A stretch of 64,000 bases of DNA from Prosopocoilus inquinatus (Eukaryota; Arthropoda; Insecta; Coleoptera; Lucanidae), in contig CM069870.1 of the NCBI GenBank assembly GCA_036172665.1, positions 25,704,001 through 25,768,000 on the forward strand. Reading direction: 5' to 3'. The notes beneath the pieces were generated by a model that was given only the letters and a program-made list of their open reading frames with translations, had not been told where the DNA came from and searched no databases. Positions 1 through 62,430 of the stretch are shown one piece after another (within the stretch, counting starts at the first letter, position 1; each line of letters begins with the position of its first letter). The translations under genes and the position numbers were made by a program.

Positions 1-982
1 CGTTTTCCAGTCTAAGGATGGTACCTCAGAAACCAGTGTCCGGAATGTTTCAACCGCTGCTTCAGCCGACAAAAATCGCTCACCACGCATTTTATTTTTG
101 ACATTTGGAAACAAAAAGAAATCATTAGGTGATAAATCAGGTGAATATGGACAATGAGTCATTAATTCAACATTTTTGTTGGACAAGAAATCAACTGTTT
201 GACGGGCTGAGTGAGAGCTGGCGTTGTCATGATGGAGAATAATTCGTCGATTTCGATTGTTTCTTCTTATTTGATCGATGACTTTCGGCAAACAAATTGT
301 AGTACACCAATCAGCATTCACGGTTTTTCAATCCTCTGAAGCCACGATTGCTACATGTCCAGTTAAACCAAAGAAACAAGCAATCATTTGCTTCGCAGCA
401 CTGCGTGAACGGACAACTTTTGTTGGTTTTGGTTCATTTTGAAATACCCAAACAGTAGATTGTTGTTTACTTTCTGGCTCGTACGAATAGATCCACGTTT
501 CGTCACCAGTAACGATGTTATAAACTAAATTTGAACGACCTCCATTGAATTTCTTAAGCATTTCTTCGCTCCATTTGACACGACCCTGTTTTTGCGCTTC
601 TGTTAAATTGTGTGGAATCCAACGACTGCAAAGCTTTCGTACGTTCAAATGATCATGCAAAATCTGGTGTATTGCTTTCATGTCAATGCGTAAGGATGCT
701 TGAATCTCACGGTATGTCACTGTGTCTATTTCGCTCAAGCATTTCACGCACAGCATCTACAATAATGGCAACAACAGATGTTGATGGACGACCGTCACGA
801 AATTCGTCACTGAGTTAGGTATGTCGACGCTGGAATTCGGCAAACCAATTATAAACACTGCTCTTTGATGATGCTTCATCTCCAAAAGCCAAATGAAGCC
901 GATCGAGGCATTGTTTCGGCGTTAGACCACATTTGAAATCGTAAAAAATCATGGCACGAAAATTTTCACGCGAGATTTCCAT
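1..982 (-). pseudogene. mariner transposase pseudogene (partial)
   Basis: Decayed mariner transposase. The longest open stretch (756-328) holds the second helix-turn-helix region, a WIPHNL motif (family form WVPHxL) and TGDETW with the first catalytic aspartate. After it the frame breaks near 328, and the HHDNA and SPDLSPND motifs follow in another frame at about 130-245. The N-terminal part (982-757) is shifted and carries a stop around 815. The C terminus is cut off by the window edge. Transposition by this copy is not possible as it stands. Confidence 0.88.
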
Positions 983-1821: not shown

Positions 1822-3084
1822 TACGTGGGCTGCTGGAAAATTTTCTGGAATCTACATAGTAGGTCTAGAATTGTTTCTAAATTTGTCGTTTTTCGCCTAT
1901 AATTCTATTGACAGTTCCTATCCAAGTGAACTAGTTTTGTTTGTACAGCATTTGAGAAAAAGTAATTTTGTGTAAACATGGAAATCTCGCATGAAAATTT
2001 TCGTGCCATGATTTTTTACGATTTCAAATATGGTCTAACGCCGTAACAATGCCTCGATAGGCTTCATTTGGCTTTTGGAGATGAAGCACCATCAAGGAGC
2101 AGTGTTTATAATTAGTTTGCCGAATTCCAGCGTGGACGTACCTCTCTCTGTGACGAATTTCGTGAAGGTCGTCCATCAACATCTGTTGTTGCCACTAATG
2201 TAGATGCTGTGCGTAAAATGCTTGAGCGAGATCGACATGTGACATACAGTGAGATTCAAGCATCCTTACGCATTGACATGAAAGCAATAGACCAAATTTT
2301 GCATGATCATTTGAACGTACGATAGCTTTGGAGTCGTTGGATCCCACACAATTTAACAGAAGCGCAAAAGCAGGATCGTGTCAAATGGTGCGAAGAAATG
2401 CTCAAGAAATTCAATGGAGGTCGTTCAAATTTAGTTTATAACATCGTTACAACAAAAAACGTGGATCTATCCGTACGAGCCAGAAAGTAAACAGTAATCT
2501 ACCGTCTGGGTATTTTAAAATGAGCCAAAACCAACAAAAGTTGTCCGTTCATGCAGTGCTGCGAAGCAAATGATTGCTCGTTTCTTTGGTTTAACTGGAC
2601 ATGTAGCAACCGTGGCTTTAGAGGATTGAAAAACCGTGAATGCTCATTGATATACTACAATTTATTTGCCGGAAGTCATCGATCAAATAAGAAGAAACAA
2701 TCGAAATCGACGAATTATTCTCCATCATGACAACGCCAGCTTTCACTCAGCCCGTCAAACAGTTGATTTTTTGTCCAACAAAAATGTTGAATTAATGACT
2801 CATTGTCCATATTCACCTGATTTATCACCTAATGATTTCTTTTTGTTCCCAAATATCAAAAATAAAATGCGCGGTGAGCAATTTTCGTCGGCTGAAGCAG
2901 CGGTTGAAACATTCCGGACACTGGTTTCTGAGGTACCATCCTTAGAGTGGAAAACGTGCTTTAGAAATTGGTTCGAGCGTATGCAAAAGTGTGTTGACGT
3001 CAAAGGCGAATACTTCGAAAAACAATGATACCGTTTACCAAATTTCATATGGGTTTTTTCATACCGTTTCCAGAAACTTTTCCA
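1822..3084 (+). mobile_element. mariner element, 3' end truncated
   Basis: Starts at a TA followed by the family's terminal repeat (CGTGGGCTGCTGG...). It runs through a broken transposase and stops about 12 bases short of the expected 3' terminal repeat, changing to unrelated sequence after TTTTCCA at 3084. It is in opposite orientation to the copy at 1-1154. Confidence 0.9.
1978..3028 (+). pseudogene. mariner transposase pseudogene
   Basis: Start codon at 1978 and natural stop at 3026-3028, nearly full length for the family (~345 residues). Several in-frame stops break it, for example where the fourth helix lysine codon has become TAA at 2043 and again at 2112. The TGDET block at about 2450 is altered. 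The C-terminal third is open (2666-3028) and holds HHDNA and SPDLSPND, the second and third catalytic aspartates with 34 residues between them. Confidence 0.9.
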
Positions 3085-5165: not shown

Positions 5166-5290
5166 TAAATTGAAGCGGGATTTGCTCCTAATAAGTCCCC
5201 CCATGCAAGGCGGCCATGCTTGCTGTCAAAGCATAATGAAAGTTTTTTAGAAAAATTTTGTGCAAATCGTTCTTGATTGCAGTGAAAGCC

Positions 5291-5355
5291 TCGAGCAGCC
5301 TCTGGACAGCTGTTTCAGCCCTGCTTGGGGCTTCTTCAGCAGAAACTTAGCTCGA
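5291..5355 (-). ncRNA. hammerhead ribozyme motif, type I
   Basis: 65-nt motif on the - strand. It shows the CTGAAGA core, stem II AGCCC/GGGCT, GAAAC, a two-pair stem III closing loop AGCT, and the GTC triplet. Stem I outer arms are TCGAGC/GCTCGA. One base differs in the stem I internal loop (GCTAAG instead of GCTACG). Predicted cleavage lies after the base at 5305. Confidence 0.7.
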
Positions 5356-5414
5356 CATTCCCACTGCAGACCAAAAACGACTTGCCCAATTTATTCGCAA
5401 TTGCAGTGGGAATG

Positions 5415-5479
5415 TCGAGCTACGTCTCTGCTGAAGAAGCCCCAAGCAGGGCTGAAACAGCTGTCCAGAGGCTGCTCGA
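5415..5479 (+). ncRNA. hammerhead ribozyme motif, type I (best pairing)
   Basis: Core CTGAAGA at 5431-5437, stem II 5438-5442 with 5449-5453, GAAAC at 5454-5458, loop AGCT, GTC at 5463-5465 with predicted cleavage after 5465. Stem I inner pairs are TCTCTG/CAGAGG, where a G-U of other copies is a G-C, and outer pairs are TCGAGC (5415-5420)/GCTCGA (5474-5479). This is the textbook natural type I layout with an internal loop in stem I. Confidence 0.75.
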
Positions 5480-5524
5480 GGTTTTCACTGCAATCAAAAA
5501 CGATTTGCACAAAATTTTTCTTAA

Positions 5525-6198
5525 TTTAATATTCTCAATCTCAATCATAGATTATCTCAATTTTAAAACATCCGCGCAGAAGGGGAGGAAGATATTTTTA
5601 AGTCCTCCGGTCTTAGTTCTCAGGTGCACTAGGCTCAAAATTAATTTCCGAAGTACAACCAACTAAGTGTATGCCATCTCGCGGTAAAATTTTAATACAT
5701 AAATCTGGTGCAAAATTTCTACAGGGCTGACAGGTCTGCTTTAGTTGTTGTCTGTGACATTTCCATCAACCCGTGAAAGAGTCGGTTGACCAATGGATGG
5801 CGCGACTCATCCGAATACGAAATTTATTGGCACCCCAACTAACGGCTGTAAAAATATCAATTAATTTTATTACATTATTTAAACTATCAGTAGGAGTATA
5901 TAAAAACCTGAACATTTTCCGCAATAATAAAATGACATAAATTACTACAATCTTAAAATTTTTGGATTAGAAGCGTGGTGATAGAAAACAAAAACGAATC
6001 GTTAGTTAATCATACAAATGTAACTAAGTTGACGGTTGTCTTGGTATATACACTATTGTCTTTTTTGTTTGTTTCTTTTTCTTGCTAAAAATAATAGCAG
6101 AAAATATGTAACAAAAGATAAATAAAAAATCACCGATCTAAAACATCCAAAATCGGAAAAAATGAAAAAGCAAACAAATTAAACGTGAAAAGGAAACG
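5525..6198. other. gene-free stretch
   Basis: Nothing recognised. AT-rich, with no long open frame supported by motifs. Confidence 0.5.
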
Positions 6199-6358
6199 GA
6201 AACAATAGAATAGATAAAACAGCGACATCCTACGATCGTTTTTTTACCTGACATTGCAGTAGGATAACAAATTGAAGCGGATTTGCTACATAATAAGGCA
6301 AAGCGGCCAGGCTTGCTGTCAGAAACGATTTGTAACAAAATTTGTTAGAAACAATAGA
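6199..6358 (-). mobile_element. deleted hammerhead-family insertion with 11-bp target duplication
   Basis: 138-bp insertion (6210-6347), sense on the - strand, flanked by perfect GAAACAATAGA duplications at 6199-6209 and 6348-6358. On the - strand it starts with the inverted 5' segment, jumps to the middle of the repeat (TGACAGCAAGC) and ends with the constant 3' tail (GATGTCGCTGTTTTATCTAT). The hammerhead itself is deleted. Confidence 0.85.
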
Positions 6359-7792
6359 GAAATTAAAGTAAAAAATCAGAAAAAATATAGAGATAAAAGA
6401 AACGGAAACAAAAGAGAAATATAAGAACAGCAACAAAAATGCAAGGCACGGAGCGAAAAAAAAGCAAAAGAAGATCGTCAACGACAAATTCGCAGAAAAT
6501 TAAAGAGACTTGTAAAAAAGTCAACAATACGATTAAAAAAAAAAATAAGGAAAAAGGATGAACTATAAACTACAGTGCGCAAAAACAAAACACATGAAAA
6601 ACGTTGAACTAACAAGAAGCATTAATAAAATGCGAAAAATAAATTCGATAAGAAAAGCAGTAGAGTAATAAAGTGTGTTCATCTGAGTTTGATGTCTATT
6701 GACCGTTGGAACTGTTAAACTTATTTTGTGAATTAAATCATATGATTTACCTTTTACTTTGACATTTGCTGAAAATAATACACAAATTTATGATAACAGT
6801 TATTTTTATTTACAAAATACCATTTATTTGAAGTCCGTTGTGAAAAGAAAAAATTTAGATTCACACGTTCGTTTTAAGCACGATTTTACGGAATACTTCT
6901 AGGTTAGGAACACGTGTATCATACGCCTGTAAACAGACTGACGTGAACAGTTGTACCAACTTAGCCCTTTTGGCGCTAAATTTAGCTCTTTTCTGAGAGA
7001 TTTAGACCTGTAAATTTTCAAATAGCCCTCGAGGTCTATTTTAGCCCCAAAATTAATTTATTTATCGTATTTTTTAAATTTAAAAATTGTTAAAAATATG
7101 TTTTATTTTTTACAAGAATTTATTTACGGCATTTAAAATATTTTAAAATAAACTATTGACCAGATGAGATTTCAATAACATTTTTATTTTATTTATTACG
7201 TAACAAATCAATTAAAAATGTTCATTTTTAACTTAATGTAAACCTTTTTAGCCCTAAACCAATCAAATTTAGCCCTATTTTGGTTTCTGTTTAGATCTTT
7301 TCTAAATGTAGAAAGACGTGAAAGTGCGTGTTGACATACGCTACGACATATGTACGCAGTCGTCAAAGCTCTCTAGACCACAATTTGTACATACGTATAT
7401 AATACTAAAGCACAAAAAAAACAAAAAGTTGACGTCTAAGACGAACAGAAAACAAATGAGTTTCCTTACGAAAATAAAAAAACTTATAGGAAACAAAAGA
7501 CAATTGTAAAAAAGAGCGTTAACAAAATGTGAAAAATCAATTTAATAAAAATAAACAAAAGAGGAATACAAAAAGATAAACCAAATTTTAAAAAATGAAG
7601 TGTACCTGCCACAATACTAAGACGAACAAAAAAATGAAAATCGACCAAGAAAGTCTTTGCAAATAAAAACAGTAGGAAGCAGAAGATAACTGTAAAAATG
7701 TTTCAATAAAATGCGAAAACCGATTCGATTAAAAAATGGAAAAAATCGAAGTATTCTCGTCGTATGGCCTTTGAAAACTGGTACCTTTAACC
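6359..7792. other. gene-free AT-rich stretch
   Basis: Very A-rich 6360-6660 and 7370-7760. No gene motif. A loose inverted similarity (TTAGCCC... segments) lies between 6960-7060 and 7240-7300 and may be an old repeat, but the ends are not clear. Confidence 0.4.
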
Positions 7793-7973
7793 AGGGCCGG
7801 CTGAATTGATATGTCATGTACGGCCAGTCCAAAGAGCATTAAAAATGTTTTTGGAAAAACTGAAAGGCATGTGTCAAGTGGCACCCTCAAATTCAAAATT
7901 AGTGTCAAAATTACTGTCATCTTGAAATTTTTGAAAAATTTTGTGCAAATCGTTTTTGATTGCAGTGAGAACC

Positions 7974-8038
7974 TCGAGCAGCCTCTGGACAGCTGTTTCA
8001 GCCCTGCTTGGGGCTTCTTCAGCAGAAACGTAGCTCGA
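7974..8038 (-). ncRNA. hammerhead ribozyme motif, type I
   Basis: Intact 65-nt motif in the inverted half of the array: core CTGAAGA, stem II AGCCC/GGGCT, GAAAC, AGCT loop, GTC triplet (C17 at 7988), stem I outer arms TCGAGC/GCTCGA. Confidence 0.75.
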
Positions 8039-8285
8039 CATTCCCACTGCAGACCAAAAACGACTTGCCCAATTTATTCGCAAATGCGATGTAAGAATGA
8101 TGAACATATAAAATAGCGACATCTTACTATCGCTTTTTGACCTAACATTGCAGTAGGATAGACAAATTGAAGCGGGATTTGCTCCTAATGAGTCCCCCAT
8201 GCAAGGCGGCCATGCTTGCTGTCAAAGCATAATGAAAGATTTTAGAAAAATTTTGTGCAAATCGTTTTTGATTGCAGTGAGAACC

Positions 8286-8351
8286 TCGAGCAGCCTCTGG
8301 ACAGCTGTTTCAGCCCTGCTTGGGGCTTACTTCAGCAGAAACGTAGCTCGA
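8286..8351 (-). ncRNA. hammerhead motif, core disrupted by 1-bp insertion
   Basis: Same layout as its neighbours but 66 nt long. One extra base falls in the conserved core between CTGAAG and the stem II strand (CTGAAGTAAGCCC). Catalysis is expected to be lost or much reduced. Its predicted cleavage position is 312 bases from the previous copy. Confidence 0.65.
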
Positions 8352-8598
8352 CATTCCCACTGCAGACCAAAAACGACTTGCCCAATTTATTCGCAAATGC
8401 GATGTAAGAATGATGAACATATAAAATAGCGACATCTTACTATCGCTTTTTGACCTAACATTGCAGTAGGATAGACAAATTGAAGCGGGATTTGCTCCTA
8501 ATGAGTCCCCCATGCAAGGCGGCCATGCTTGCTGTCAAAGCATAATGAAAGATTTTAGAAAAATTTTGTGCAAATCGTTTTTGATTGCAGTGAGAACC

Positions 8599-8663
8599 TC
8601 GAGCAGCCTCTGGACAGCTGTTTCAGCCCTGCTTGGGGCTTCTTCAGCAGAAACGTAGCTCGA
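8599..8663 (-). ncRNA. hammerhead ribozyme motif, type I
   Basis: Intact 65-nt motif, last of the inverted units. C17 is at 8613. All core bases and both stem I helices match the other copies. Confidence 0.75.
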
Positions 8664-8885
8664 CATTCCCACTGCAGACCAAAATCTTTCATTATGCTTT
8701 GACAGCAAGCATGGCCGCCTTGCATGGGGGACTCATTAGGAGCAAATCCCGCTTCAATTTGTCTATCCTACTGCAATGTTAGGTCAAAAAGCGATAGTAA
8801 GATGTCGCTATTTTATATGTTCATCATTCTTACATCGCATTTGCGAATAAATTGGGCAAGTCGTTTTTGGTCTGCAGTGGGAATG

Positions 8886-8950
8886 TCGAGCTACGTTTCT
8901 GCTGAAGAAGCCCCAAGCAGGGCTGAAACAGCTGTCCAGAGGCTGCTCGA
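8886..8950 (+). ncRNA. hammerhead ribozyme motif, type I
   Basis: Intact 65-nt motif in the sense half of the array. Predicted cleavage after C at 8936. Confidence 0.75.
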
Positions 8951-9197
8951 GGTTCTCACTGCAATCAAAAACGATTTGCACAAAATTTTTCTAAAATCTT
9001 TCATTATGCTTTGACAGCAAGCATGGCCGCCTTGCATGGGGGACTCATTAGGAGCAAATCCCGCTTCAATTTGTCTATCCTACTGCAATGTTAGGTCAAA
9101 AAGCGATAGTAAGTTGTCGCTATTTTATATGTTCTTCATTCTTACATCGCATTTGCGAATAAATTGGGCAAGTCGTTTTTGGTCTGCAGTGGGAATG

Positions 9198-9262
9198 TCG
9201 AGCTACGTTTCTGCTGAAGAAGCCCCAAGCAGGGCTGAAACAGCTGTCCAGAGGCTGCTCGA
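9198..9262 (+). ncRNA. hammerhead ribozyme motif, type I
   Basis: Intact 65-nt motif. Predicted cleavage after 9248, exactly 312 bases from the previous site, so a transcript of the tandem would release a 312-nt unit. Confidence 0.75.
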
Positions 9263-9557
9263 GGTTCTCACTGCAATCAAAAACGATTTGCACAAAATTT
9301 TTCTAAAATCTTTCATTATGCTTTGACAGCAAGCATGGCCGCCTTGCATGGGGGACTTATTAGGAGCAAATCCCGCTTCAATTTGTCTATCCTACTGCAA
9401 TGTTAGGTCAAAAAGCGATAGTAAGATGTCGCTATTTTATATGTTGAAATTTTTGGTTATGAGAAATGTCAATTCGTCTTGATATTTAAATTGTCAAAAA
9501 AAGCGTCGTAACCATGGTAACAACTAATTAATGAGTACGAGAGGGCGCTAGTTGATA

Positions 9558-13393: not shown

Positions 13394-15544
13394 TACAGGG
13401 TGGATTTAAATTCGATGTCTCTTATGGGCATCCCCGTAACTATAAGTGATAGGAAAAAACTAATGGCCAAGACGCGATCTCTTTTTTGGAGATTAAGTCA
13501 AAACCGTAAACAATAATTGGCTATCTTCTTTTGTTTTCAAGTTATGGGCAAAAATTGACATTTTCGACTTTTCTTTTTTCGGTCATGTCTCGTTTATTTT
13601 TAGAGATATTAGAAAACTGTTTGATCATTATTAGAACACATTTTGGAATACAATTCAGTGGTGTAGTTTATTTTTTAATATTTACTTAAATTTTTGAAAT
13701 ATAAGATAAAGTTGTTTTTTTTTTTTTTTAATGGAAATCATAGTAGGCAATGCCCTCATTAAATAGAGATGTTTTTCCTGTTTATATATACTTTGTTGGG
13801 TTTATTTTTTATAATTAATAGGAAAAACTGTCATTTTTATTATTATCCTTGCGTTAATATCCTAGTCTCAATAGGCTGAGTTCAATACTGTGCCGATTTT
13901 TGTTTTGCAAAAAATTTTAACGAAGCTTTGAAATATTTTCACAGTTTTGGCTGCCTAAATAATTTCCCATTCGCGTTAATTTTCGGTCGCGTTAATATTC
14001 ACTTAAATTTTCAAGCTAAAACATAAAGTTATATTTTTTTTGTTTTCAAAAATGTATACTTTGTTAGGTTTATTTCTTAAAATTAATAGGAAAAACTATC
14101 ATTTTTATTATTATCCTTGCATAAATATCCTAGTCTTAGTAGGCCGGGTTCAATGCGGAGCCGATTTTTTTATTTTATAAAATTTTAACGAGCTTTCAAA
14201 TCTTTTCAAAGTTTTGGCTGCGTAAATAATTTCGTATACGCGTTAATTTACAAATTTCCGTTTCATCGTTTTGAGCGACCGTTCTAATAAGAGTTCCCGT
14301 CTGACTTTCTATTGAAAATCAGTTTATCATTTAATTTATAGAAAAATTATTTTCAATCTTTAAACAGTCAAAATTGCACGAATACTCAACGTTTCACTAT
14401 CGGTTTATAGCTTCGTTAGGAAGAAACGTTGAACGTTCGTGCAATTTTCAGTGTCCGTTTAAAAGTTGAAAACAATTTTTATACAATTTCCATTGGACAA
14501 GAAACGACTTTAATAAAAAATTTGTAATTGAAGTCGACTCTTGTTCGATGAAATATGTGAGAGAAAATAGTATTTAAACTTTAAAATGGACACTGTGAAA
14601 TCGCAAGAACACGCTACGATTCGCTATCGCTTTATAGTTTCGTCAGGAGTGAAAAAATGTAAACAAACAAGTTGTCAAGAGAAGCGAAAAGGTAACATGA
14701 TTTTACACTAAAATAGAAGTTGTTCGAATAAATATAAAGGTAATAATAACTAAATTAGAACTAAATTAAGATTTCGTTTTTTTGTTTCTCTTGAGTTATA
14801 TTTTATTAAAAACACGAAAAACAAAAATAAACACACAAATAGTAAAATATAAAAAAAATCGGACATGTATCAAACTAAATTTGCGTGCATTTATATTTAA
14901 TAAAAACGAAAAAAGGTTTTGACAGATCGGTCGCGATGCATGCTACATTTCTCAAACGGAATTTTGTAAAATCAAGTGAATGTGAAATTCTTTACGTGGC
15001 CAAAACTGCCAAAAGGTTTGAAAGTTCATTAATATTTAATAAAAACAAAAAATGTCGGCACTGTAGCCTACTGAGACTAGGATACGCAAGGCTAATAGCA
15101 AAAATGGCATTTTTCCTATTAATTATAAGAAATAAACCCAACAAAGTATATATTTTTGAAAACAGAAAAAAAAATCTCTATTTAATGAAGGCATTGCCTA
15201 CTATGATTTCTATTTAAAAAAATAAAATTTTATGTTATAACTTGAAAATTTAACTAAATATTAAAAAAGCAACTACACCACTGAATTGTATTCCAAAAAG
15301 TGTCCTAACAATGATCAAACAGTTTTTTAATATCTCTAGAAACAAACGAGATATGACCGAAAAACGAAAAGTCGAAAATGTCAATTTTTGCCCATAACTT
15401 GAAAACAAAAGAAGATAGCCAACTTTTGTTTAGGCTTTTGACTTAATCTCCAAAAAAGAGATCGAGACTTGGCCACTAGTTTTTTTCTATCTCTTATAGT
15501 TACGGAGATGCCCATAAGAGACATCGAAATTAATCCATCCTGTA
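13394..15544. mobile_element. 2.15-kb inverted-repeat element
   Basis: Begins TACAGGGTGGATT and ends ...AATCCATCCTGTA. The terminal arms (13394-13740 and ~15200-15544) are ~350-base reverse complements; matching inner segments at 13780-13870 and 15050-15200 extend the palindrome. The block around 13780 is repeated in direct orientation at 14045. Two small foldback segments with hammerhead-like motifs lie inside at 14365-14460 and 14600-14700. No transposase found. Confidence 0.85.
14365..14460. repeat. short hairpin with hammerhead-like motif (decayed)
   Basis: A ~20-bp stem (ATTGCACGAA.../...TTCGTGCAAT and TCAACGTTTC/GAAACGTTGA) encloses, on the - strand, CTAACGA, a stem ending in GATAGT, and GAAACGTT. 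The conserved G of the CTGANGA core is changed to A, so this copy should be inactive. Confidence 0.45.
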
Positions 15545-17000: not shown

Positions 17001-19205
<2,205 letters not shown>

Positions 19206-24097: not shown

Positions 24098-26188
24098 TCA
24101 CTGCTTCTTAAAATGATCGTTACTGATTTCAATTCTCAGTGGACTCCTGTGTTCTTTTTGATTAAAATTGGGCTCTCCTTCGAAACCCGGCCTGTCGGTG
24201 ATTCTCTCTGGCTTGCTTGGGGCATCAGAATTTCGAAACTCGGATAAACTTTCCTCAGTGTCGGAACTTTCGACAGAATCGTCGGAGCTGCTCTCGCTGC
24301 TACTCGTCTCGCTTTCACTGCTTGTAGATTCCTTTCGTATTCGAAGCTTCCCCTCAGACACGGTTTTCAATCGTTCCCTTTCTGAATGAATTCGAGACCA
24401 GACTGTCGATGCAACCGCCGGTTTTTTCTGAGTTTTGATTACAACAGCTATTTTACTTTTTGGTTTATGGTTGTTGAAACGATCTTCATAATACTCCTCC
24501 CTTCTTCGATTTTCTTGCCTGTCTGAGTGCAACCTCATTTCGTAATGCTCTGATGGTGATTTATGTCTTCTACGTTTCTCATCTTTGCTTTCTTTTTCTA
24601 CCAATTTCCTACTTCTGTGATGTCTTTCAACTAATTCTTCTTCTACACTGCTCGCTTTATTTCTCTCCGTTTCAGTTTTATCACTGCGTAACCTCTTGTT
24701 TCTGTTTTTTAATTTTGAACCTAAATCAGTTTCATTATCTTTTTCTTCAAGCTTTACCGTGACTTTGTTCTTTTTCGATGCCACCTTTAAAATGTTCCTC
24801 AAGTCTTCCATGCTACTTTCTTTCTGAAGACTCTTAGCCATTTTTAATTCTTGTAATTGTCGTTTACGCTTGATTTTTTCTTCTTCTTCATCTGCGTACA
24901 TTCGCATTCTCGGTACCTTGGTTTTCTTTTCCATGTTACCTTCTTCAGACTTACTGGTGCCTGGTTCCAAAGATCTTTTAAAACCTAATCTGTTCATTAT
25001 GTCAGACTTGGTTGTCCTCGGGTGAGATACCAAACTATTTGGCTTTGGGACACTTTCGACTTCCCGCTCGCAATAATGAGCATCTTCATCCCAGTTCAAT
25101 GCCAATGCACCCCAAGGATTTTTTGAATCATCAGCAGCTACCTTCTTGTCTCTTTGGATGTCTCTGTTACGGTCGAATATGCCTTTGAATCTTTGCTTGC
25201 GACTTTCCGTTATTATTCCTTTCATGCCGCCAAAATTTGGATTTCCATGTTTTTTATAGTACTCACTAAATTTTTCCGCTTTCAACGGTTTCTTATCTGA
25301 CTTAAAAGCAAACCTTAAGAGTATGAATTTACACTTTGGATGTGGCACTCCTAATCTCCAATATCCAGGAGGAATTGGAACCGTAATATCACTAATATGC
25401 ACGTATGCATTCGTTGCGTCTTCTTTATAATCATCTTGCAGTTCCACTTCTCTATTTGTATTTTTCAGTAAGATACTACGACCTTCATTTTCTTTGTTTT
25501 CCGTTTCTTTGGAATCCAATTCTTTCACGAACGGATCACAAGGACCTTCAACCGGCATACCTTTTATCGGTTTCGAAAGGAAGAACAATGCCCTGGCAGA
25601 TGATATTTTGTCATTCCACACGATGTTACAACTTTCGTCATTTATCCATTCTATACCAGCCGGTCCATATTTGCCGAAATATTCAAACACATCTTCTGTA
25701 CTCAACTCATCGGTTCCTCTCATGTGAATCGCTTCGAATCTTATGTCCTTTTCTTCCTCTGTCGTTATTCCTAAGGTATCGTGCAGTTCTTGCAGCTGCT
25801 CGTCAGTGAAATTATTTAAATCACTTGGGTTTAAAGCAAAGCGTTTCGCTCTTTCCAGGAGCTTACTCTGCTCTTCCTTGTCGAAGATATTGATGCCAGT
25901 GGTGAAGCCACCATTCGAGTTTGGCCATATCTAAAAAGATGATGCAAATTATCACGTACATTATTATAGAGATGATTACGATGGTGATTTACACACCCTC
26001 TGCGTTGGTACAGGTCTGATTATTTGTTGCTGCTGGGGATTCGTGGGGAGTGTTTCCATGTCGTTCGTATCGCTAATTTCACCTTCTTCTTCCTCATCTT
26101 TCTTTTCTTCGCCGTCAACATCCATCGCTTCCACTAAATTATTGTGAATTTCTATACGTATGTTTGGCCTCATTGTTGACTCCGCCAT
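24098..26188 (-). CDS. NCBP3: nuclear cap-binding protein subunit 3
   Basis: NCBP3 (formerly C17orf85/ELG) binds the 5' cap of RNA polymerase II transcripts in the nucleus with the large cap-binding subunit NCBP1 and links to TREX and export factors. Exon 1 is 26188-25997 and exon 2 is 25930-24098, phase 0, 674 residues. The start is the ATG of MAESTM in a good context (AAAATGG). After an acidic N-terminal region (EEKKDEEEEGEI) comes the family's signature NGGFTTGINIF and ERAKRF, then the RRM-like domain (STEDVFEYF, GPAGIEWINDESCNIVW) and a second conserved block (YYKKHGNPNFGGMKGI). The C-terminal half is charged, ending in a Ser/Glu-rich tract. The human family's WLDD RNA-binding motif reads WIND here. 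It lies head-to-head with SMPD4. Confidence 0.95.
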
Positions 26189-30900: not shown

Positions 30901-33900
30901 GGTTGCCTGAATCTCCCGGTACAGTAGTGATGCGACGAGTCGAGTAAACTCGCGGACAGACTCGATTCTCAAAAGTACTCATTGTACTCGAGTAACCAAT
31001 TCTGTGAACCCGACTCAGCAGTACTCGAATCAACTCGAGTTCGATTCAAGTACTCGAGTACCGACTTTAGAATTAAATAGCGCTGCAACGAGACTGAATT
31101 TTCAAAGGTACTCGCTCTACTCGATTCACTTCACAGTGCTTCCTCGTTAATAAATAATATAAATCTCTAAAATTTATATTTTACATATTTTGATATACAT
31201 AAGTCTCTAATAATAAAGTGTGTAGATACCGTTAAAAATATAAACAAAAACACTGCACCTTCAAATTTTTAACTATAGACTTTACCATGAGTAAAACAAA
31301 TTGAGTCGTGACTACTCATACTTACGGGTTTAGTTAAATGTTCGAATCTTTTGATTTAGACTCGAGTCGAAACTCGCCCCTGTTATAAAAAATACTCAAA
31401 TTTATTATATTCCTTAAGACAATTCGAGTTTATTCAGGTATTCAAGTACTTTTGACTTGGACTTTTGACTCTAGTAGACTTGAGTACTCGAGTATTTTAT
31501 AAAAGTATTCGAGTCGACTCGATTCTTAAAAACACCGACTCGTCGCATCACTACTGTACAGTGACCGGCGGAAACGTACATACTACATATGGGAAAATTT
31601 TTTATTATTGATTTCTCAGAAAAATTTATTCTTTATGAAAGCTCTAAGTGTCAAAGTTTGAATACCTCCTGTCATGTACCGGGGAAATCAAAATATTTGA
31701 AATCGATAAAAGAGTAAACTACCGTTATTTTTCACGCTACGCGGAAATTTTATTTGAAAAAGTTATCAGAATTGTTATGAAATCTCAAATATGAAATCAT
31801 GGCTACCTATGATGGAAAAAAATAATTTGGCTACAAAAAATTGTAATTTTTAGGGTATCAATGTTATTAATCATAATTTATAGTTGACAGTTGAGCAAAA
31901 GACAAATTTTAGAGTTCATGTCACACTTGAAGAAAGGTCCAGCTCTACACATTCAAAGTTCTGCAACACACACGTTGGTACGAAAAAAATTGAAAAATAC
32001 GTGAAATTCTTTTTTTCATCGTAGACAGCAATCATTTCATATTTGAGATCTCATAATAATTCTGAGTAACTTTTCCAAATAAAATTTCCGCGCAGCGTGG
32101 AAAATAAAGGTAATTTACTCTTATATCGATTTCAAATATTTTGATTTCTCCGGTATATGACAGGAGGTATTCAAACTTTGACACATGCATCTTGAGTTTG
32201 GGAAGATGCAGGGGCTTTCATAAAGAATAAATTTTTCTGAGAAATCAAAAATAAAAAGTTTCCCATATGTAGCCAACTTTCTGCCGGTCACTGTATGTCT
32301 AAATTAATTTTTCAGACGTTGCATTTTAATGAACTACCGACTGGGGAATACGTAAGAATTATTAGAGTTCTCGTAAAGCAGTTGCACGCTTTCGCTTCCA
32401 GCGGGAAGCTAGATGACAGCCACATGGGCGAACTTAAGAAAATCACCGTTCCAATGATGCAAGGAAAAATGTACGTTTTCCTAAGGAATTTAATACACCG
32501 TTGGCCTTTGGATGGCTCGTTTCGACTGGTCCTGGAACTCTGGTTGAGTTTCATACAACCATGGAGATATCCAGGAAATACACACTTAAAACAGTTGTAA
32601 GTAATCAAGTGCTAACTAATTTTGATTTGTATTGTTATGCAAAATAATTTGAGTAGGAATCAAGCTGACGTAAATTCTGATTTAGAAGATATGAATTTTG
32701 CAACATTAAAATCGGTTGACAAGGAATACTTGCCGTTCATCGCTGAAAATATTTTAGCATACGTTGTTATATTCCAACAATTACTGCCGAGGTTCACCAG
32801 GGTTGACTTATCGAGTCCAAAGAATGCCCTTATGTTATACAGATTAACGAAGGTACAGCAAGAAGCGTTGCACATCTTGGCCGTAATTATAATCTCCTTG
32901 TTTAAGGTGTTCGATCAGCCAAATTTAGTGCCTTTAATACGGGAAGTAGAAAGCTGCATCGAGGAAAGAAATTTATCCCCCAGGCATACATTTAATGTAA
33001 CCGCCTTGAATACAATGCCACCATTATCCCCCACTTCAAGATGGTCAACAAACACCACGCACTACACCTTACCCAAAAGTTTCGACACTATGAACACCAG
33101 TAAGGACATGTCTGGCTCTAGTTTCTTCGAAACAAGCAAACATAATTGTGGCAAATACGCAGCGCTTATAAGGCAAAAAGTATACGAATTAGAAGGACCG
33201 AATTTCTGTTACAAACCGCTGTTCACAACTCCAGCTGCACCGGAAGTAAATGCACCGGTGATTGTTGGTTTTTTCTTACCTTCACGAAATCATAACTTGC
33301 AGGTTTATGAAATGATTAAGCAAATAAGAAAATCGGAAATCACAGCTCAAAACATAATCCAAGTACGGGTGGACGAAATGAAAAGGATTTCCAGCGGATT
33401 CTTCGGTTTCTTTAAATCAATCTTTGTGAAACTGGATACCTCGTCGGATGAGTTTACGTTGGAGGAGCGAAGGAAGGTTCCTGTGTATTTAGATTTTTCC
33501 TACCAGCACTTAACAGACATGTTTCAAATTAACGATGTATGTGTTTAATGATTGTTATAAAAACTTATATACTTTGCTTTGTACTTTTTAATGTTTGTTG
33601 TAGTGTTTATGTGCAGAAACTGAGAGTTTCTCCGAAATAACTTTACCGCCGAGACAACAAGAAATTAGAAATGAAAATTTCCAACATTTGTTGACGCCGG
33701 AAAGAGTTAAGGAGCGAAGAAAAACTATAATTTACGAAGGTGATCCAGATTTGCATCCGATTCGTTCTACTGAAAATAAATTTTTCGTGAGGATGTTGTA
33801 TCATTGGGCGACGAAAATCAATGAGAAGGTACTATTCCTACTGTTAACTTTTTATTATATTTCTTGTTGCTGGATCAGTTAGTAATTAAATTTACAATTC

Positions 33901-37975: not shown

Positions 37976-38372
37976 TCAACTTTTTACAAAATTTTGTTGC
38001 AAATCGTTTTACTGCAATGTCAGGTCAAAAAGCGATCGTAAGATGTCGCTGTTTTATCTGTTCATCACTCTTCCATCGCAATTGCGAATAAATTGGACAA
38101 GTCGTTTTTGTTTGCAGTGGGAATGTCGAGCTACGTCTCTGCTGACGAAGCCCCAAGCAGGGCTGAAACAGCTGTACAGAGGCTGCTCGAGGTTTTCACT
38201 GCAATCAAAAACGATTTGCAACAAAATTTTTTAAAACTTTCATTATGCTTTGACATCAAGCATGGCCGTCTTGCATGGGGGATTATTAGGAGCAAATCCG
38301 TTTCAATTTGTCTATCCTACTGCAATATCAGGTAATGTAAGATGTCGCTGTTTTATCTATTCAACTTTTTAC
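37976..38372 (+). mobile_element. hammerhead-family insertion with 12-bp target duplication
   Basis: Insertion 37988-38360 between perfect TCAACTTTTTAC duplications (37976-37987 and 38361-38372). It begins with a ~23-base inverted segment (AAAATTTTGTTGCAAATCG), switches into sense sequence at ACTGCAATGTCAGG, contains one full unit with a hammerhead, and ends in the constant tail GATGTCGCTGTTTTATCTAT. It is the most diverged copy. Confidence 0.9.
38126..38190 (+). ncRNA. hammerhead ribozyme motif, diverged copy
   Basis: 65-nt motif with core CTGACGA (only the free position 7 differs from other copies), unchanged stem II and GAAAC, and triplet GTA in place of GTC. Stem I inner strand is TCTCTG, which pairs better with CAGAGG. 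The changes fall where hammerheads tolerate them. Confidence 0.72.
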
Positions 38373-43070: not shown

Positions 43071-43529
43071 TACACGTGTACACGGACTCCGTGTAATAAT
43101 ATTCGCGAATTAAATTCACATGTAATTAAATACACGTGTAATTGTGCATTACACGTGTATTTTTACGGATCCGTTTGGTACATTCAAATCAAAAAGTAAG
43201 ATGTCGCTATTTTATCTGTTCATTCAAATCAACGTACGTTACCTAGCAACAGATATGTTTTTGTTTACCGATAGCGGGAAGGTAACTTTTATATAATGAG
43301 AGTCAAAAACAACAGCAATAATTGAAAATTTCATTTTATTTATCAGTTAATTGCTTGCTTGACAATACCTATCAATAAAATATTAACGTGTAATATAAAT
43401 ACACGTGTAAAACAAATACACGTGTAAAACAAATACACGTGTAAAACAAATACACGTGTAATATTAAATACACGGGTACCCGTGTATTTAATATTACACG
43501 TACTAAAATTTGAATCTGTGTACACGTGT
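43071..43529. repeat. ACACGTGT palindrome cluster
   Basis: Eight exact ACACGTGT palindromes at 43072, 43132, 43151, 43401, 43418, 43435, 43452 and 43522 (starts). The four from 43401 are spaced exactly 17 bases apart, a short tandem array, followed by a larger palindrome AATACACGGGTACCCGTGTATT around 43470. Confidence 0.8.
43181..43232 (+). mobile_element. 28-bp tail-only insertion of the hammerhead family
   Basis: Perfect CATTCAAATCAA duplications at 43181-43192 and 43221-43232 enclose just 28 bases (43193-43220) ending ...AAGATGTCGCTATTTTATCTGTT, the constant 3' tail of the family. Confidence 0.85.
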
Positions 43530-48936: not shown

Positions 48937-50238
48937 TACGTGGGCTGCTGGAAAAGTTTCTGGAAACGGTATGAAAAAACGCATATAAAATTTGGTAAAC
49001 GGTATCATTGTTTTTCGAAGTATTCGCCTTTGACGTCAATACACTTTTTTTCGTACGCTCGAACCAATTTCTAAAGCACGTTTTCCACTCTAAAGGTGGT
49101 AGGTAGCTCAGAAACCAGTGCCCTGAATGTTTCAACCGCTGCTTCAGCCGACGAAAATCGCTCACCACGCATTTTATTTTTGATATTTGGGAACAAAAAG
49201 AAATCATTAGGTGATAAATCAGGTGAATATGGACAATGAGTCACTAATTCAACATTTTTGTTGGACAAAAAATCAACTGTTTGACGGGCTGAGTGAGAGC
49301 TGGCGTTGTCATGATGGAGAATAATTCGTCGATTTCGATTGTTTCTTCTTATTTGATCGATGACTTCCGGCAAACAAATTGTAGTATACCGATCAGCATT
49401 CACGGTTTTTCGATCCTCTAAAGCCACGGTTTCTACATGTCCAGTTAAACCAAAGAAACAAGCAATCATTTGCTTCGCAGCACTGCGTGAACGAACAACT
49501 TTTGTTGGTTTTGGTTCATTTTGAAATACCCAAACGGTAGATTGTTGTTTACTTTCTGGCTCGGATAGATAGATCCACGTTTCGTCACCAGTAACGATGT
49601 TATAAACTAAATTTGAACGACCTCCATTGAATTTCTCGAGGATTTCTTCGCACCAGTTGACACGACCCTGCTTTTGCGCTTCTGTTAAATTGTGTGGGAT
49701 CCAACGACTGCAAAGCTTTCGTACGTTCAAATGATCATGCAAAATCTGGTGTATTGCTTTCATGTCAATGCGTAAGGATGCTTGAATCTCACGGTATGTC
49801 ACATGTCGATCTCGCTCAAGAATTTCACGCACAGCATCTACATTAGTGGCAACAACAGATGTTGATGGACGACCTTCACGAAATTCGTCACTGAGAGAGG
49901 TACGTCCACGCTGGAATTCGGCAAACCAATTATAAACACTGCTCTTTGATGGTGCTTCATCTCCAAAAACCAAATGAAGCCGATCGAGGCATTGTTTCGG
50001 CGTTAGACCACATTTGAAATCGTAAAAAATCATGGCAAGAAAATTTTCTCGCGAGATTTCCATGTTTACACAAAATTATTTTTTCTCGAATGCTGTACAA
50101 ACAAAACTAGTTCACTTGGATAGGAACTGTCAATAGAATTATAAGCGAAAAACGTCAAATTTTTTAAATATGACAGTTGATAAACGCTAACAATTCTAGA
50201 CCTACTAGATTCCACAAAATTTTCTAGCAGCCCACGTA
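48937..50238 (-). mobile_element. mariner element, both ends intact
   Basis: Bounded by TA at both sides, with inverted terminal repeats TACGTGGGCTGCTGG... (48937) and ...TAGCAGCCCACGTA (to 50238), about 28 bases. Length ~1.3 kb is typical for mariner. It contains the least decayed transposase of the window. Confidence 0.95.
49071..50063 (-). CDS. mariner transposase, nearly intact, C terminus frameshifted
   Basis: Cut-and-paste transposase of the Tc1/mariner superfamily. The 330-residue frame starts at the ATG at 50063 and has paired helix-turn-helix regions (about residues 1-110), the linker motif WIPHNL (121-126), and the catalytic triad D160 (TGDETW), D252 (HHDNA) and D287 (SPDLSPND), with exactly 34 residues between the last two, the mariner D,D34D signature. 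Compared with sibling copies a 4-bp gain at about 49092-49110 shifts the frame and replaces the last ~30 residues, and another indel follows near 49050. The conserved C-terminal helix (LEWKTCFRNWFER) is therefore encoded out of frame at 49207-48887. Probably inactive or impaired. Confidence 0.9.
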   Translation of the reverse strand: MEISRENFLAMIFYDFKCGLTPKQCLDRLHLVFGDEAPSKSSVYNWFAEFQRGRTSLSDEFREGRPSTSVVATNVDAVREILERDRHVTYREIQASLRIDMKAIHQILHDHLNVRKLCSRWIPHNLTEAQKQGRVNWCEEILEKFNGGRSNLVYNIVTGDETWIYLSEPESKQQSTVWVFQNEPKPTKVVRSRSAAKQMIACFFGLTGHVETVALEDRKTVNADRYTTICLPEVIDQIRRNNRNRRIILHHDNASSHSARQTVDFLSNKNVELVTHCPYSPDLSPNDFFLFPNIKNKMRGERFSSAEAAVETFRALVSELPTTFRVENVL

Positions 50239-54967: not shown

Positions 54968-56238
54968 TACGTGGGCTGCTGGAAAATTTTCTGGAATCTA
55001 GTACGTCTAGAATTGTTAGTGTTTATCAACTGTCATATTTGAAAAATTTGACGTTTTTCGCCTATAATTCTATTGACAGCTCCTAACCAAGTGAACTAGT
55101 TTTGTTTGTACAGCATTTGAGAAAAAGTAATTTTGTGTAAACATGAAAATTTCGCGTGAAAATGTTCGTGCCATGATTTTTTACGATTTCAAATGTGGTC
55201 TAACGCCGAAACAATGCCTCGATCGGGTTCATTTGGCTTTTGGAGATTAAGCACCATCAAAGAACAGTGTTTATACTTGGTTTGCCGAATTTCAGCGTGG
55301 GCGTACCTCTCTCTCTCTCTCAGTGACGAACTTCATGAAGGTCGTCCATGAACATCTGTTGTTGCCACTAATATAGATGCTGCGCTTGAAATACTTGAGC
55401 AAGATCGACATCTGACGTACCGTGAGATTCAAGCATCCTTACGCATTGACATGAAAGCAATACACCAGATTTTGCATGATCATTTGAACGTACGAAAGCT
55501 TTGCAGTCGTTGGATCCCACACAATTTAACAGAAGCGCGAAAGCAGGGTCGTGTCAAGTTGTGCGAAGAAATGCTCAAGAAATTCAATGGAGGTCGTTCA
55601 AATTTAGTTTGTAACATCGTTACTGGTGACGAAACGTGGATCTATTCGTACGAGCCAGAAAGTAAACAACAATCTACCGTTTGGTTATTTCAAAATGAAC
55701 CAAAACCAACAAAAGTTGTCCGTTCACGCAGTGCTGCGAAGCAGATGATTGCTTGTTTCTTTGGTTTAACTGGACATGTAGCAACCGTGGCTTTAGAGGA
55801 TCGAGAAACCGTGAATTCTGATTGGTGTACTACAATTTGTTTGCCGGAAGTCATCGATCAAATAAGAAGAAACAATCGAAATCGACGAATTATTCTCAAT
55901 CATGACAACGCCAGCTCTCACTCAGCCCGTCAAACAGTTGATTTTTTGTCCAACAAAAATGTTGAAGTAATGACTCATTGTCCATATTCACCTGATTTAT
56001 CACCTAATAATTTCTTCTTGTTCCCAAATATCAAAAATTAAATGCGTGGTGAGCGATTTTCGTCGGCTGAAGCAGCGGTTGAAACATTCCGGACACTGGT
56101 TTCTGAGGTACCATCTTTAGAGTGGAAAACGTGCTTTAGAAATTGGTTCGAGCGTATGCAAAAGTGTCACGTCAAAGGCGAATACAATTACGAAAAACAA
56201 TGATACCGTTTCCAGAAACTTTTCCAGCAGCCCACGTA
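54968..56238 (+). mobile_element. mariner element, both ends intact
   Basis: TA-bounded with inverted ends TACGTGGGCTGCTGG... and ...CCAGCAGCCCACGTA. It is inserted in the 3' part of the LINE remnant. Confidence 0.95.
55144..56203 (+). pseudogene. mariner transposase pseudogene
   Basis: Start at 55144. Stopped early where a glutamate codon of the GDEAP motif became TAA (55249), then disturbed by a CT-rich expansion at 55308-55322. An open frame resumes at 55451-56041 with WIPHNL, TGDETW, and a DNA block (HDNASSH). The third catalytic motif reads SPDLSPNN, so that aspartate is changed to asparagine, and a stop follows at 56039-56041. Confidence 0.9.
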
Positions 56239-56480
56239 GGTGTAGCGCTAAAAAATTCAAGTAAACAAAAGCTAAATTTACTTAAGAAGGTATTATGAAC
56301 ATATAAAATAGCGACATCTTACTATCGCTTTTTGACCTAACATTGCAATAGGATAGACAAATTGAAGCGGGATTTGCTCCTAATGAGTCCCCCATGCAAG
56401 GCGGCCATGCTTGCTGTCAAAGCATAATGAAAGATTTTAGAAAAATTTTGTGCAAATCGTTTTTGATTGCAGTGAGAACC

Positions 56481-56545
56481 TCGAGCAGCCTCTGGACAGC
56501 TGTTTCAGCCCTGCTTGGGGCTTCTTCAGCAGAAACGTAGCTCGA
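56481..56545 (-). ncRNA. hammerhead ribozyme motif, type I
   Basis: Intact 65-nt motif in the sense half of this insertion: CTGAAGA, AGCCC/GGGCT, GAAAC, AGCT, GTC, and both stem I helices. Confidence 0.75.
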
Positions 56546-56921
56546 CATTCCCACTGCAGACCAAAAACGACTTGCCCAATTTATTCGCAAATGCGGTGTA
56601 AGAATGATGAACATATTAAATAGCGACATCTTACTATCGCTTTTTGACCTAACATTGCAGTAGGATAGACAAATTGAAGCGGGATTTGCTCCTAATGATC
56701 TGCACAAAATTTTTCTAAAATCTTTCATTATGCTTTGACAGCAAGCATGGCCGCCTTGCATGGGGGACTCATTAGGAGCAAATCCCGCTTCAATTTATCT
56801 ATCCTACTGCATTGTTAGGTCAAAAAGCGATAGTAAGATGTCGCTATTTTATATGTTCATCATTCTTACATCGCATTTGCTAATAAATTGGGCAAGTCGT
56901 TTTTGGTCTGCAGTGGGAATG

Positions 56922-56986
56922 TCGAGCTACGTTTCTGCTGAAGAAGCCCCAAGCAGGGCTGAAACAGCTGTCCAGAGGGTGCTCGA
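56922..56986 (+). ncRNA. hammerhead ribozyme motif, type I
   Basis: 65-nt motif in the inverted half. One stem I base differs (GAGGGTGCTCGA in place of GAGGCTGCTCGA), removing one pair next to the internal loop; the core is intact. Confidence 0.7.
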
Positions 56987-57028
56987 GGTTCTCACTGCAA
57001 TCAAAAACGATTTGCACAAAATTTTTCT

Positions 57029-57917
57029 AAGAAGGTATTGTTTGAATTTCTTACCATGAAAAGATTTTATTTCATCCGGTAACGTATTATATATTTTGAT
57101 GCTAATATAAATGTGAGAATTATTAAATTTACTACTTTGTATTTGATCGATTCTAATGAAGTTTGGGGTTCGAGTTTTGTATCGAAGAACATCAGAATTA
57201 GATGTTAACTTATTCATATTTTCATGCACGTAGATTACAGATTGCAGGATAAATAGATTAAAGACAGTGGGAATGTTTAAGTCAATAAAAACTTGTTTTC
57301 ATGATTCCAGCGGACTTAAATATCTTATAACGCGTATCGCTTTTTTTGTAATAACAATATTTGATTTAAATTGGATTTGGATCCCCAAAGTAATAAGCCA
57401 TATGTTACGGCTGAATTGAAATATGCGAAACAAATCATACGAAATGTGGCAATATCACATATTCCTCGCAATTTTAAAAGTACAATGATGGCTTTATTTA
57501 ATTTTGGCAGCATTGATTCCAAATGGAGAGATCAACTTAAATTACTATCTAATGTTAAGCCCAGTAATTTCGATTTTGTGACAGTTTTTAAATTAATATC
57601 ATTTATTATGATATCTTCGTTATATTTATTTTCAAAGATTAAAATATTAGTTTTATCCATATTTAGGGTTAATTTGTTGCTATTGAACCAGTGAAGTAGC
57701 TGGTTCATGATTGTCTGACATTTATTCACAAGGTCATCTCTATTGTCACCTGTGATCACAATATTCGTATCGTCTGCATATAATGTTGTAGTGGCGTCAG
57801 TGTTGGTTGGGAGGTCGTTTATAAGTATGACAAATAGGAGCGGGCCTAATATAAAACCCTGGGGTATTCCAGAAAATATGTAAAGTCTATTAGATTGATG
57901 AATATAGTATTTGAAAA
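57029..57917 (-). pseudogene. LINE reverse transcriptase remnant
   Basis: Non-LTR retrotransposon ORF2 piece read on the - strand. From the 5' side: GIPQGFILGPLLFVILINDL, the catalytic YADD at 57780-57769, then a thumb region with LGLTLDSNL, a frame change near 57525, YFNSAVTYGLLLWG at about 57430, and the C-terminal YISIKIYNTLPDEIK and KKFKQYLL. The block order resembles Jockey/CR1-like elements; the clade is not certain. The remaining C terminus continues beyond the nested hammerhead insertion at 56283 and toward the mariner. Truncated at the 5' end and frameshifted, so inactive. Confidence 0.85.
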
Positions 57918-58430
57918 GTAAAGATGCTCGAATATTGGCTTACCCAATTATGTTACAGCAAAATTCTATTTAGGTTTCTTAAAGTGCTCTTCAAGATAAA
58001 TCAGTTTGTGAAATTTGAGAATATTTCAGTCGCTCAGTTTCAAGATATTTAAAATGATCAGTAACGAAATTGAATTTATACCAAACTTGATCAGTAAATG
58101 TGGAAATAAATTACTGGAAATGTTTTTTTCTATCAATCTTCTTCTAAAACGACTAGACTTATTAATTATCTGTCCGGTTTTCACTATCATTAATCAAGGC
58201 TGTGCTGATAGTTTAGTATAACTTGAATTTAGTTACAAAATCTTTATTTAAATATCTTGAAACACAGCGTATGAAAAATTTTCAAACTTCACAGACAGAT
58301 TCATCTCGAAGAGTACTTTAAAAAACATAAATGTAATTTTGCCGTAAAATAATTAGGGAAGCCAATATTCCAGCATCTATAAATTAACATGGGATTTCCT
58401 ATGTTGCGTTTCAAAATGCTGCACGCTATA

Positions 58431-59619: not shown

Positions 59620-59926
59620 TATATAAAATGATTAGAAAAATTTTGTGCAAATCGTTTTTGATTGCAGTGAGAACCTCTCTCTGCTGAAGAAGCCCCAAGC
59701 AGGGCTGAAACAGCTGTCCAGAGGCTGTTCGAGGTTCTCACTGCAATCAAAACCGATTTGCACAAATTTTTTCTAAAAACTTTCATTATACTTTGACAGC
59801 AAGCATGGCCGCCTTGCATGGGGGACTTATTAGGAGCAAATCCCGCTTCAATTTGTCTATCCTACTGCAATGTCAGGTCAAAAAGCGATAGTAAGATGTC
59901 GCTATTTTATATGTATATAAAATGAG
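59620..59926 (+). mobile_element. hammerhead-family insertion with 12-bp target duplication
   Basis: Insertion 59632-59914 between perfect TATATAAAATGA duplications (59620-59631 and 59915-59926). The inverted 5' segment is ~46 bases, switching to sense inside the hammerhead (at CTCTGCTGAAG). It ends in the constant tail GATGTCGCTATTTTATATG. Confidence 0.9.
59684..59718 (+). ncRNA. hammerhead core, stem I strand replaced
   Basis: CTGAAGA, stem II, GAAAC, AGCT and GTC are intact. The 5' strand of outer stem I was removed by the orientation switch; six inner pairs (CTCTCTG region with CAGAGG) remain, and a new long inverted helix GAGAACCTC/GAGGTTCTC lies outside it. Confidence 0.6.
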
Positions 59927-61185: not shown

Positions 61186-62089
61186 TTGGTTTTTACTTGA
61201 TTCAATTTGACTTTGTACTATCAGTTTGATTCCCTTTTGTTTTCTCTTTAGTTCTCTTAATTCGATTTGACTCAGTGTTGTATAGAATATTTACTTTCGT
61301 CAAATTTTCAACGCCGATCGTCTTTTGTTTATTTTTAACTTCCTTATTTGATTTGATTTAATTCAATTTTTAGTGCAGCGTGGAAACTAAGCGGCGGATT
61401 AATTCAATATTTTCAAGGCGGTCAATTTTCTCAAAAAATTTTCGAATTTTCTATTTTGTCTATAATTTTCTGCCCTTTCCAGAAAATATTTTTACTACTG
61501 CAACGTCTTTGCGAAAAACTGAACGAGTGTTAACTTATTTTTTTTAATGCTACCCCTCCCCCCAATTAGACAAAATTATAACGGATCGGAGCGTTTTTTT
61601 TTTGACAAAATTAATCGTCTGGAAAATATTGAATTTATCCGCTATTTAGTTTCCATGCTGAATAATTAATTGATCGAGCTTTGTTCTTTTATTCGATTTA
61701 TTCCTTTAATTTATTTTTAAATATCAATTGTTTGTGGTTTGCTTTTGTTTTTTTATTTACTAGATTTGAGTGCATTTTACATTTTAATCTCTTCGATAAA
61801 TCGCCCCAATTTTTTTTTTATTTTTTATGCCATTTGACTTTATTTTTAATTAATTAAGTATACTTTTTCTTTAAAATTTAACGAATATTTTTTTACACTC
61901 CTATAATTTTATAATTTCGTCTATCATCTTTTATTTTTTCTTTTGTTTGATTTCATTTGATACGATTTTTTTTCCTCTATCTTACTATCAATTGAGTAAC
62001 TTCTGTTTTGCATTTTTTCTTTCATTTACTCTATTTGGGTTTATTTCATTTTACGATTTAATCTTTAATATTTACAACTAAAGTCAAAT
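61186..62089. other. gene-free T-rich stretch
   Basis: No gene recognised; long T-rich tracts. Confidence 0.5.
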
Positions 62090-62430
62090 CTTGTCTGAAG
62101 AAAATAGCTTTTAAACCTTAAAACGGACACTGTAAAATCGCAAGGAATACTCTACGTTTCGTAATCGCTTGATAGCTTTGTCAGGAGTAAAAATATATAA
62201 ATGAACAAGGTGTCAAGAGAAACGAAAAGGTAAGTAACATGAATTAAAAAAAACACTAGTTCTTTTTATTTGTTTCGTTCTTTAGTTTAAAATCATGTTA
62301 CCTTTTTATTTCTCTTGACAACTTGCAAATTTATATCACTCCTGACGGAGCTATTAAGCGATAGCGAAACGTAAAGTGTTCCTTGCGATTTTATAGTGTT
62401 CGTTTTAAAGTTTAAAAATTATTTTCTTAA
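62090..62430. mobile_element. short foldback element, second hammerhead-like family
   Basis: Arms ≈62110-62240 and ≈62290-62425 are reverse complements (CACTGTAAAATCGCAAGGAA against TTCCTTGCGATTTTATAGTG). The right arm has CTGACGG, stem GCTAT/ATAGC and GAAACGTA; the left arm (- strand) has CTGACAA. Both depart from the CTGANGA core by one base. Confidence 0.75.

Follow-up and report, generated by a model that had tools for sequence, protein, structure and literature searches.

Two internal start sites in the insertions of a beetle hammerhead retrozyme point to a Penelope-type enzyme

Retrozymes without long terminal repeats (LTRs) are an established kind of small, hammerhead-bearing repeat in animals. 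In the excerpted text of Cervera and de la Pena (2020, PMC7229834) they have units of about 300 bp, GC below 45%, a type I hammerhead with a weak two-pair stem III closed by a tetraloop, and no coding region; they occur as dimers to multimers, and insects are among their carriers. For newts and axolotl, the same excerpt already describes a hammerhead whose weak stem III has a palindromic loop and which is active as a dimer. As of 2020, the mobilizer of these elements was called unknown, with Penelope elements as likely candidates and, in the passages available, no insertion-site evidence (PMC7229834, PMC7761336). Here we describe a 312-bp repeat of this kind in a 64,000-nt stretch ("the window") of the beetle Prosopocoilus inquinatus (contig CM069870.1, positions 25,704,001 to 25,768,000), and the junctions that it leaves in the genome.

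The repeat matches the described animal retrozymes in unit length, GC content, hammerhead type, tandem copies, lack of a coding region, weak stem III and an insect as carrier, and so the kind itself is known; what is new is how it inserts. Its arms lie mostly head to head, with one end at a site A and the other at a site B and with 12-bp target-site duplications (TSDs), whereas the excerpt of PMC7229834 gives TSDs longer than 4 bp and no insertion anatomy. This layout resembles that of Penelope-like elements, which in the excerpts of PMC11167929 and PMC3846280 share head-to-head ends, a tail at one end, AT-rich targets and a hammerhead. Penelopes differ in encoding a reverse transcriptase and a GIY-YIG domain, which the retrozyme unit does not. 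Another insect repeat DNA with a hammerhead is pDo500 of Dolichopoda cave crickets, described in the excerpt of PMC2837043 as satellite DNA and likened here by description only. Among the matches listed in a literature search of open-licence titles and abstract openings, there was no beetle retrozyme and no insertion-site evidence of Penelope moving retrozymes.

A reading of the window from its letters alone (hereafter the sequence-only reading) had reported ten near-full-length copies of a 65-nt motif, spaced by 312 nt. All ten are present, and the spacing is as given apart from one unit of 313. The anatomy is also as that reading had it: inner stem I TTTCTG or TCTCTG; core CTGANGA; stem II AGCCC-CAAGCA-GGGCT; GAAAC; an AGCT loop on two pairs; GTC (GTA in the copy at 38.1 kb); and the closing CAGAGG and GCTCGA. 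Three corrections are needed. An eleventh copy at 59.7 kb had been missed; the core is not uniform, as one of the ten carries an inserted T; and the window has a further copy of the repeat, at 6210-6347, with no ribozyme in it. The copies are listed here with the reference unit; all were found by core pattern and descriptor unless stated.

8821..9132 (+), reference 312-bp unit (u1-u312), numbering used for all u positions
5291..5355 (-), hammerhead copy
5415..5479 (+), hammerhead copy
7974..8038 (-), hammerhead copy
8286..8351 (-), hammerhead copy with T inserted in the core; no descriptor hit
8599..8663 (-), hammerhead copy
8886..8950 (+), hammerhead copy at u66-u130, with cleavage predicted after u116
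9198..9262 (+), hammerhead copy
38126..38190 (+), hammerhead copy with N7 = C and H17 = A
56481..56545 (-), hammerhead copy
56922..56986 (+), hammerhead copy
59678..59732 (+), hammerhead copy, stem I lacking its outer 5' arm

A loose core pattern gave 11 matches in the window against 0.67 expected by chance; it skips the copy with the T insert, and its match at 61084 is a different repeat, left out of the copy count. The full type I descriptor (CUGANGA, GAAA, three helices, open stem I, UH site) fits 10 of the 11 copies and gave no hit in 100 dinucleotide shuffles of the window. All 11 hammerhead cores sit in one 312-bp repeat. Its unit has a GC content of 43.3%, and neither LTR-like direct repeats nor a long frame was seen in it. 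Because its unit falls within 170-400 bp, carries a type I hammerhead and has less than 45% GC, and because it occurs in tandem and lacks an LTR, the repeat is classed, on these sequence features, as a non-autonomous non-LTR hammerhead retrozyme of the animal kind. It is abundant: in the 649.6-Mb host assembly the core occurs, within three mismatches, at least 22,314 times (reversed control, 0), and exact tandem dimers at least 3,244 times (control, 0). The same core scan found no match in GTDB contigs and none in viral contigs. The assembly also holds a head-to-tail run of 13 retrozyme cores at exact 312-bp spacing (G000:C1:13287520-13291269).

The sequence-only reading had staked its near-textbook hammerhead on a covariance-model hit, and on that formal test the claim fails: no Rfam model matched at its gathering score. 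The best in a 901-base stretch was RF02275, with 14.5 bits against a cut-off of 52; the Rfam clan filter reports the best-scoring model only, which would hide a separate score for RF00163. Two Penelope loci of the same genome likewise gave no Rfam hammerhead. As it missed the hammerhead in the retrozyme, Rfam was dropped as arbiter, and descriptor statistics were used instead. Folding was the other computational check proposed. Most of stem I and stem II is kept, but part of the core is paired otherwise, the nearest-neighbour fold reaching -27.6 kcal/mol and the hammerhead fold -18.1. Eight of 200 shuffles were as stable as the 68-nt motif. The whole unit folded as a closed circle gave -111.4 kcal/mol, versus a mean of -74.2 (standard deviation 4.6) for 100 shuffles.

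By descriptor, then, the motif is a type I hammerhead that is predicted to self-cleave. Across the ribozyme (69-83 arm copies per position), only u77 and u116 have a second letter at 10% or more, although the loci had been preselected for an intact core with N7 free and so are uninformative on core conservation. Position u77 lies in stem I, where U.G alternates with C-G; u116 is the H17 position, with C in 71 copies, A in 11, and neither G nor T. Exact counts over the whole genome give N7 = A in 12,320 copies, one of the other three letters at N7 in 732, and H17 = A in 1,533; G5 is changed in 76 and G8, to any other letter, in 67. Hammerheads leave N7 free. The N7 variants, mostly C among those shown, are often in the same places as H17 = A and so may stem from few events. 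That changes at G5 and G8 are rarer than those at N7 points to selection for the ribozyme. Copy-to-copy variation falls where the ribozyme tolerates change. The anatomy and the comparison with retrozymes drawn by the sequence-only reading stand.

The window contains six insertions. Insertion ends were typed by two sites, located here in the reference copy.

8990..8998 (+), site A (u170-u178), one insertion end
9128..9136 (+), site B (u308 into the next unit, to its u4), the other insertion end
5167..5524 (-), insertion L1, ends at site A and u252; no TSD found
6210..6347 (-), insertion L2, without ribozyme; 11-bp TSD GAAACAATAGA at 6199-6209 and 6348-6358; short A arm read by eye
7934..9443 (+), insertion L3, inverted arm of 2.4 turns and forward arm of 2.4 turns; TSD TTGAAATTTTTG at 7922-7933 and 9444-9455
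37988..38360 (+), insertion L4; TSD TCAACTTTTTAC at 37976-37987 and 38361-38372
56295..57027 (-), insertion L5; TSD TAAGAAGGTATT at 56283-56294 and 57028-57039
59632..59913 (+), insertion L6; TSD TATATAAAATGA at 59620-59631 and 59914-59925

Five of the six have an exact flank match of 11-12 bp; the sixth (5167..5524) has none. With the same exception (u252), the ends are at about u169-175, inverted, and at about u308-u4.

The pattern holds in a wider sample: 100 of the 22,314 core places, all with zero mismatches and on contig C1 up to 6.31 Mb, plus the window. Drawn from one contig end and one window, these form 96 clusters, of which the window contributes 7. The outer arms are oriented (-,+) in 72 clusters, (+,+) in 16, (-,-) in 8 and (+,-) in none; some one-orientation clusters, such as those at 38.0 and 59.6 kb, are really two-armed, with one arm below the length limit of the script. 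Both ends could be typed in 62 of the 72 (-,+) clusters, 60 on C1 and 2 in the window. With site A at u~175 and site B at u~312, these read AB in 31, BA in 30, AA in one and BB in none. Thus 61 of 62 two-armed insertions have one A end and one B end, with the arms head to head. (The lone AA row, in L008, arises from two insertions, A..B and B..A, which lie about 40 bp from each other and were fused by the 80-nt clustering rule.) The longest flank match of these 61 insertions measures exactly 12 bp in 29 cases and at least 12 bp in 45; it falls short of 11 bp in 14. In a cross-locus control, matches of 12 or more arose in 0.24% of 2,388 pairings. The 29 exact 12-mers describe a target of about nATAAwwTTATn, 84% A+T. 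Head-to-head arms, two internal start sites, an AT-rich target and a TSD together are the marks of Penelope-type insertion.

An inverted part joined to a forward part between TSDs is also the picture given for L1 in the excerpt of PMC2837659, and a long interspersed element (LINE) reverse transcriptase fragment (RVT_1, 62.3 bits) lies at 57538-57939 (-), just downstream of the insertion at 56295..57027. LINE-type twin priming in place of a Penelope-type enzyme is nevertheless very unlikely: 72 of the 96 clusters are two-armed, 61 of 62 pair an A end with a B end, TSD lengths peak sharply at 12 bp, starts fall in two fixed zones inside the unit, and none of the insertion ends listed has an A-tail.

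What was the template? Exactly two arms are present at 57 of the 61 loci, giving 114 arms. Of these, 82 cross the predicted cleavage junction (set one base early in these counts) and 27 are longer than one turn; one has its inner end within 3 nt of the junction. Compared at 14 polymorphic sites, the paired arms of one locus carry the same letter in 288 of 309 cells; when right arms were shuffled among loci the mean was 62.7%, and none of 5000 shuffles reached the observed value. Agreement so far above the shuffled mean indicates that both arms derive from one template variant. In the 39 loci whose arms overlap by at least 60 nt, the arms are closer to each other than the inter-locus median in 30 and equal to it in 3. 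Odd periods also recur within a locus, in 10 pairs versus 1.3 expected (9 of 20,000 shuffles as high; first 100 of the 3,244 tandem dimers, 63 loci); one locus has four intervals of 309 across both of its arms. These data favour circles of about 312 nt, and the template is best explained, most simply, as a single RNA circle.

A linear transcript of a multimeric array would offer the same enzyme a template in which the ribozyme is dispensable for insertion. The arrays for it exist: the exact dimers and the 13-unit run. However, the arms meet within 16 nt in all 57 two-arm loci, so no long flanking DNA was copied along; and the few copies changed at G5 (76) and G8 (67), set against 732 at N7, speak of selection on the ribozyme. 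A linear template thus appears unlikely. The joins themselves share 1-11 bases in 40 of these loci and 39 and 62 bases in two; six share none, and nine have a gap of 1-16 nt.

A possible helper resides in the same genome. It has a uniform GIY-YIG family whose open frames reach 788 aa among the 150 candidates scored out of 2,232. A stretch of 951 bases from one such frame scores 54.4 bits with RVT_1, and an end piece scores 31.7 bits with GIY-YIG. By these domain matches, the family is a Penelope-like element. Neighbouring GIY-YIG pairs less than 7 kb apart are divergent in 46 of 47 cases, with one on the same strand and none convergent. Six loci picked for shortness reveal the ends: in all six, one end lies near TCTCACTATTTATTT and the other near TTGCTTTGTGATTA, 37 nt further on (the tail end of L077 was located via another short motif). 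Their flanks match over 11-15 bp, where a cross-locus control gave no more than 9. Both arms at all six carry a hammerhead-like core, CTGAAGA..GAAA. The layout at these loci is the insertion grammar of the retrozyme. Short Penelope insertions, L079 and L080 among them, consist of two near-identical C-terminal halves, head to head.

The window itself holds a second repeat of this appearance.

62077..62426 (no strand assigned), Penelope-like head-to-head repeat; 12-bp TSD TTAATATTTACA, span with TSDs 62065-62438; one end 21 nt longer (by eye)

It carries a hammerhead-like core, CTGACGAAGCTATC..GATAGCGAAACG, which is also found at 14389-14419 and 14616-14646 (-). By eye, CTATTT recurs near ends in three places, at site B of the retrozyme, at site A of the Penelope and in this repeat; the likeness is suggestive only.

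The sequence ACTGCAA..TCAAAAA.CGAT is common to sites A and B, with the same orientation at both; 13 of 2000 shuffles did as well. The insertion ends thus resemble imperfect inverted repeats. Read in this way, the element would be a DNA transposon with terminal inverted repeats (A inverted, B) and 12-bp TSDs, and the hammerhead a mere resemblance. That is barely credible. The ends wobble by several bases and the inner joins are scattered round the unit, as is not expected of cut-and-paste; exact termini with a conserved interior were not found; the shuffled windows never produced the descriptor; and an element bearing a reverse transcriptase has the same layout.

A Penelope-type enzyme probably inserts the retrozyme RNA, as a circle, by priming from both DNA ends. 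In the excerpt of PMC11167929, purified Penelope protein of the anole cuts the two DNA strands and extends each, with two initiation sites inside the RNA; the excerpt of PMC3846280 gives rotifer Penelopes inverted ends with a tail optional at one. In the proposed course of events, transcripts with two or more tandem ribozymes would self-cleave to about 312 nt, and these RNAs would be closed into circles. A Penelope-type enzyme would then cut both strands of an AT-rich palindromic target, 12 bp apart, matching the duplication seen. Both DNA ends would prime reverse transcription on a single shared circle, one of them from site A and the other from site B. The two complementary DNAs would travel round it to differing extents, covering as much as several turns, and their stopping points would be joined, mostly through a few bases in common. 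This would yield the arrangement observed, two head-to-head arms of which one ends at A and one at B. We also lean, with less assurance, towards a general form of this model, in which a Penelope-type dimer holds one ribozyme-made circle at two start sites, each cut strand priming on a different one, and the A-plus-B rule applies to Penelope elements and animal retrozymes alike. If so, retrozymes would be parasites of Penelope, in the manner of short interspersed elements.

Several observations weigh against this account. In the sample, 24 of 96 clusters have one orientation only, 10 of 72 have an untyped end, and 14 of 61 insertions lack a flank match of 11 or more. At 6 of 39 loci the arms differ from each other by more than the inter-locus median, periods are unequal in 3 of 17 multi-interval loci, and gene conversion between arms could raise their likeness. 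On the Penelope side, the strict type I descriptor failed on the hammerhead-like core in 5 of 5 loci tested; the Penelope end region showed no homology above chance level to the 312-bp unit (58 of 300 shuffles did as well; one family compared); and the start sites are 37 nt apart, versus about 138 nt in the retrozyme. The excerpt of PMC11167929 reports start sites alike for both strands of anole Penelope, and ribozyme mutants that insert in vitro as well as wild type. Rotifer Penelopes, in the excerpt of PMC3846280, have TSDs of 8-10 bp or none, versus 12 bp here.

The junctions tie a retrozyme to Penelope-type insertion, a step previously only guessed at, and show that both insertion halves come from one template variant. 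They also supply two start sites that are testable with purified Penelope protein.

The window also has other features. A Pfam scan found a Mariner/Mos1-like transposase copy at 49074-50075 (-); copies at 1-756 (-), 2651-3025 (+) and 55352-56041 (+) are alike by translation. A perfect 48-nt palindrome at 43454-43501 surfaced as a weak microRNA match. Among host genes, NCBP3 lies at 24098-25930 (-), closest to beetle proteins (best, Popillia japonica, 53% identity); kinase exons lie at 17867-18922 (+); and an exon at 32616-33545 (+) matches mitochondrial-associated sphingomyelin phosphodiesterase.

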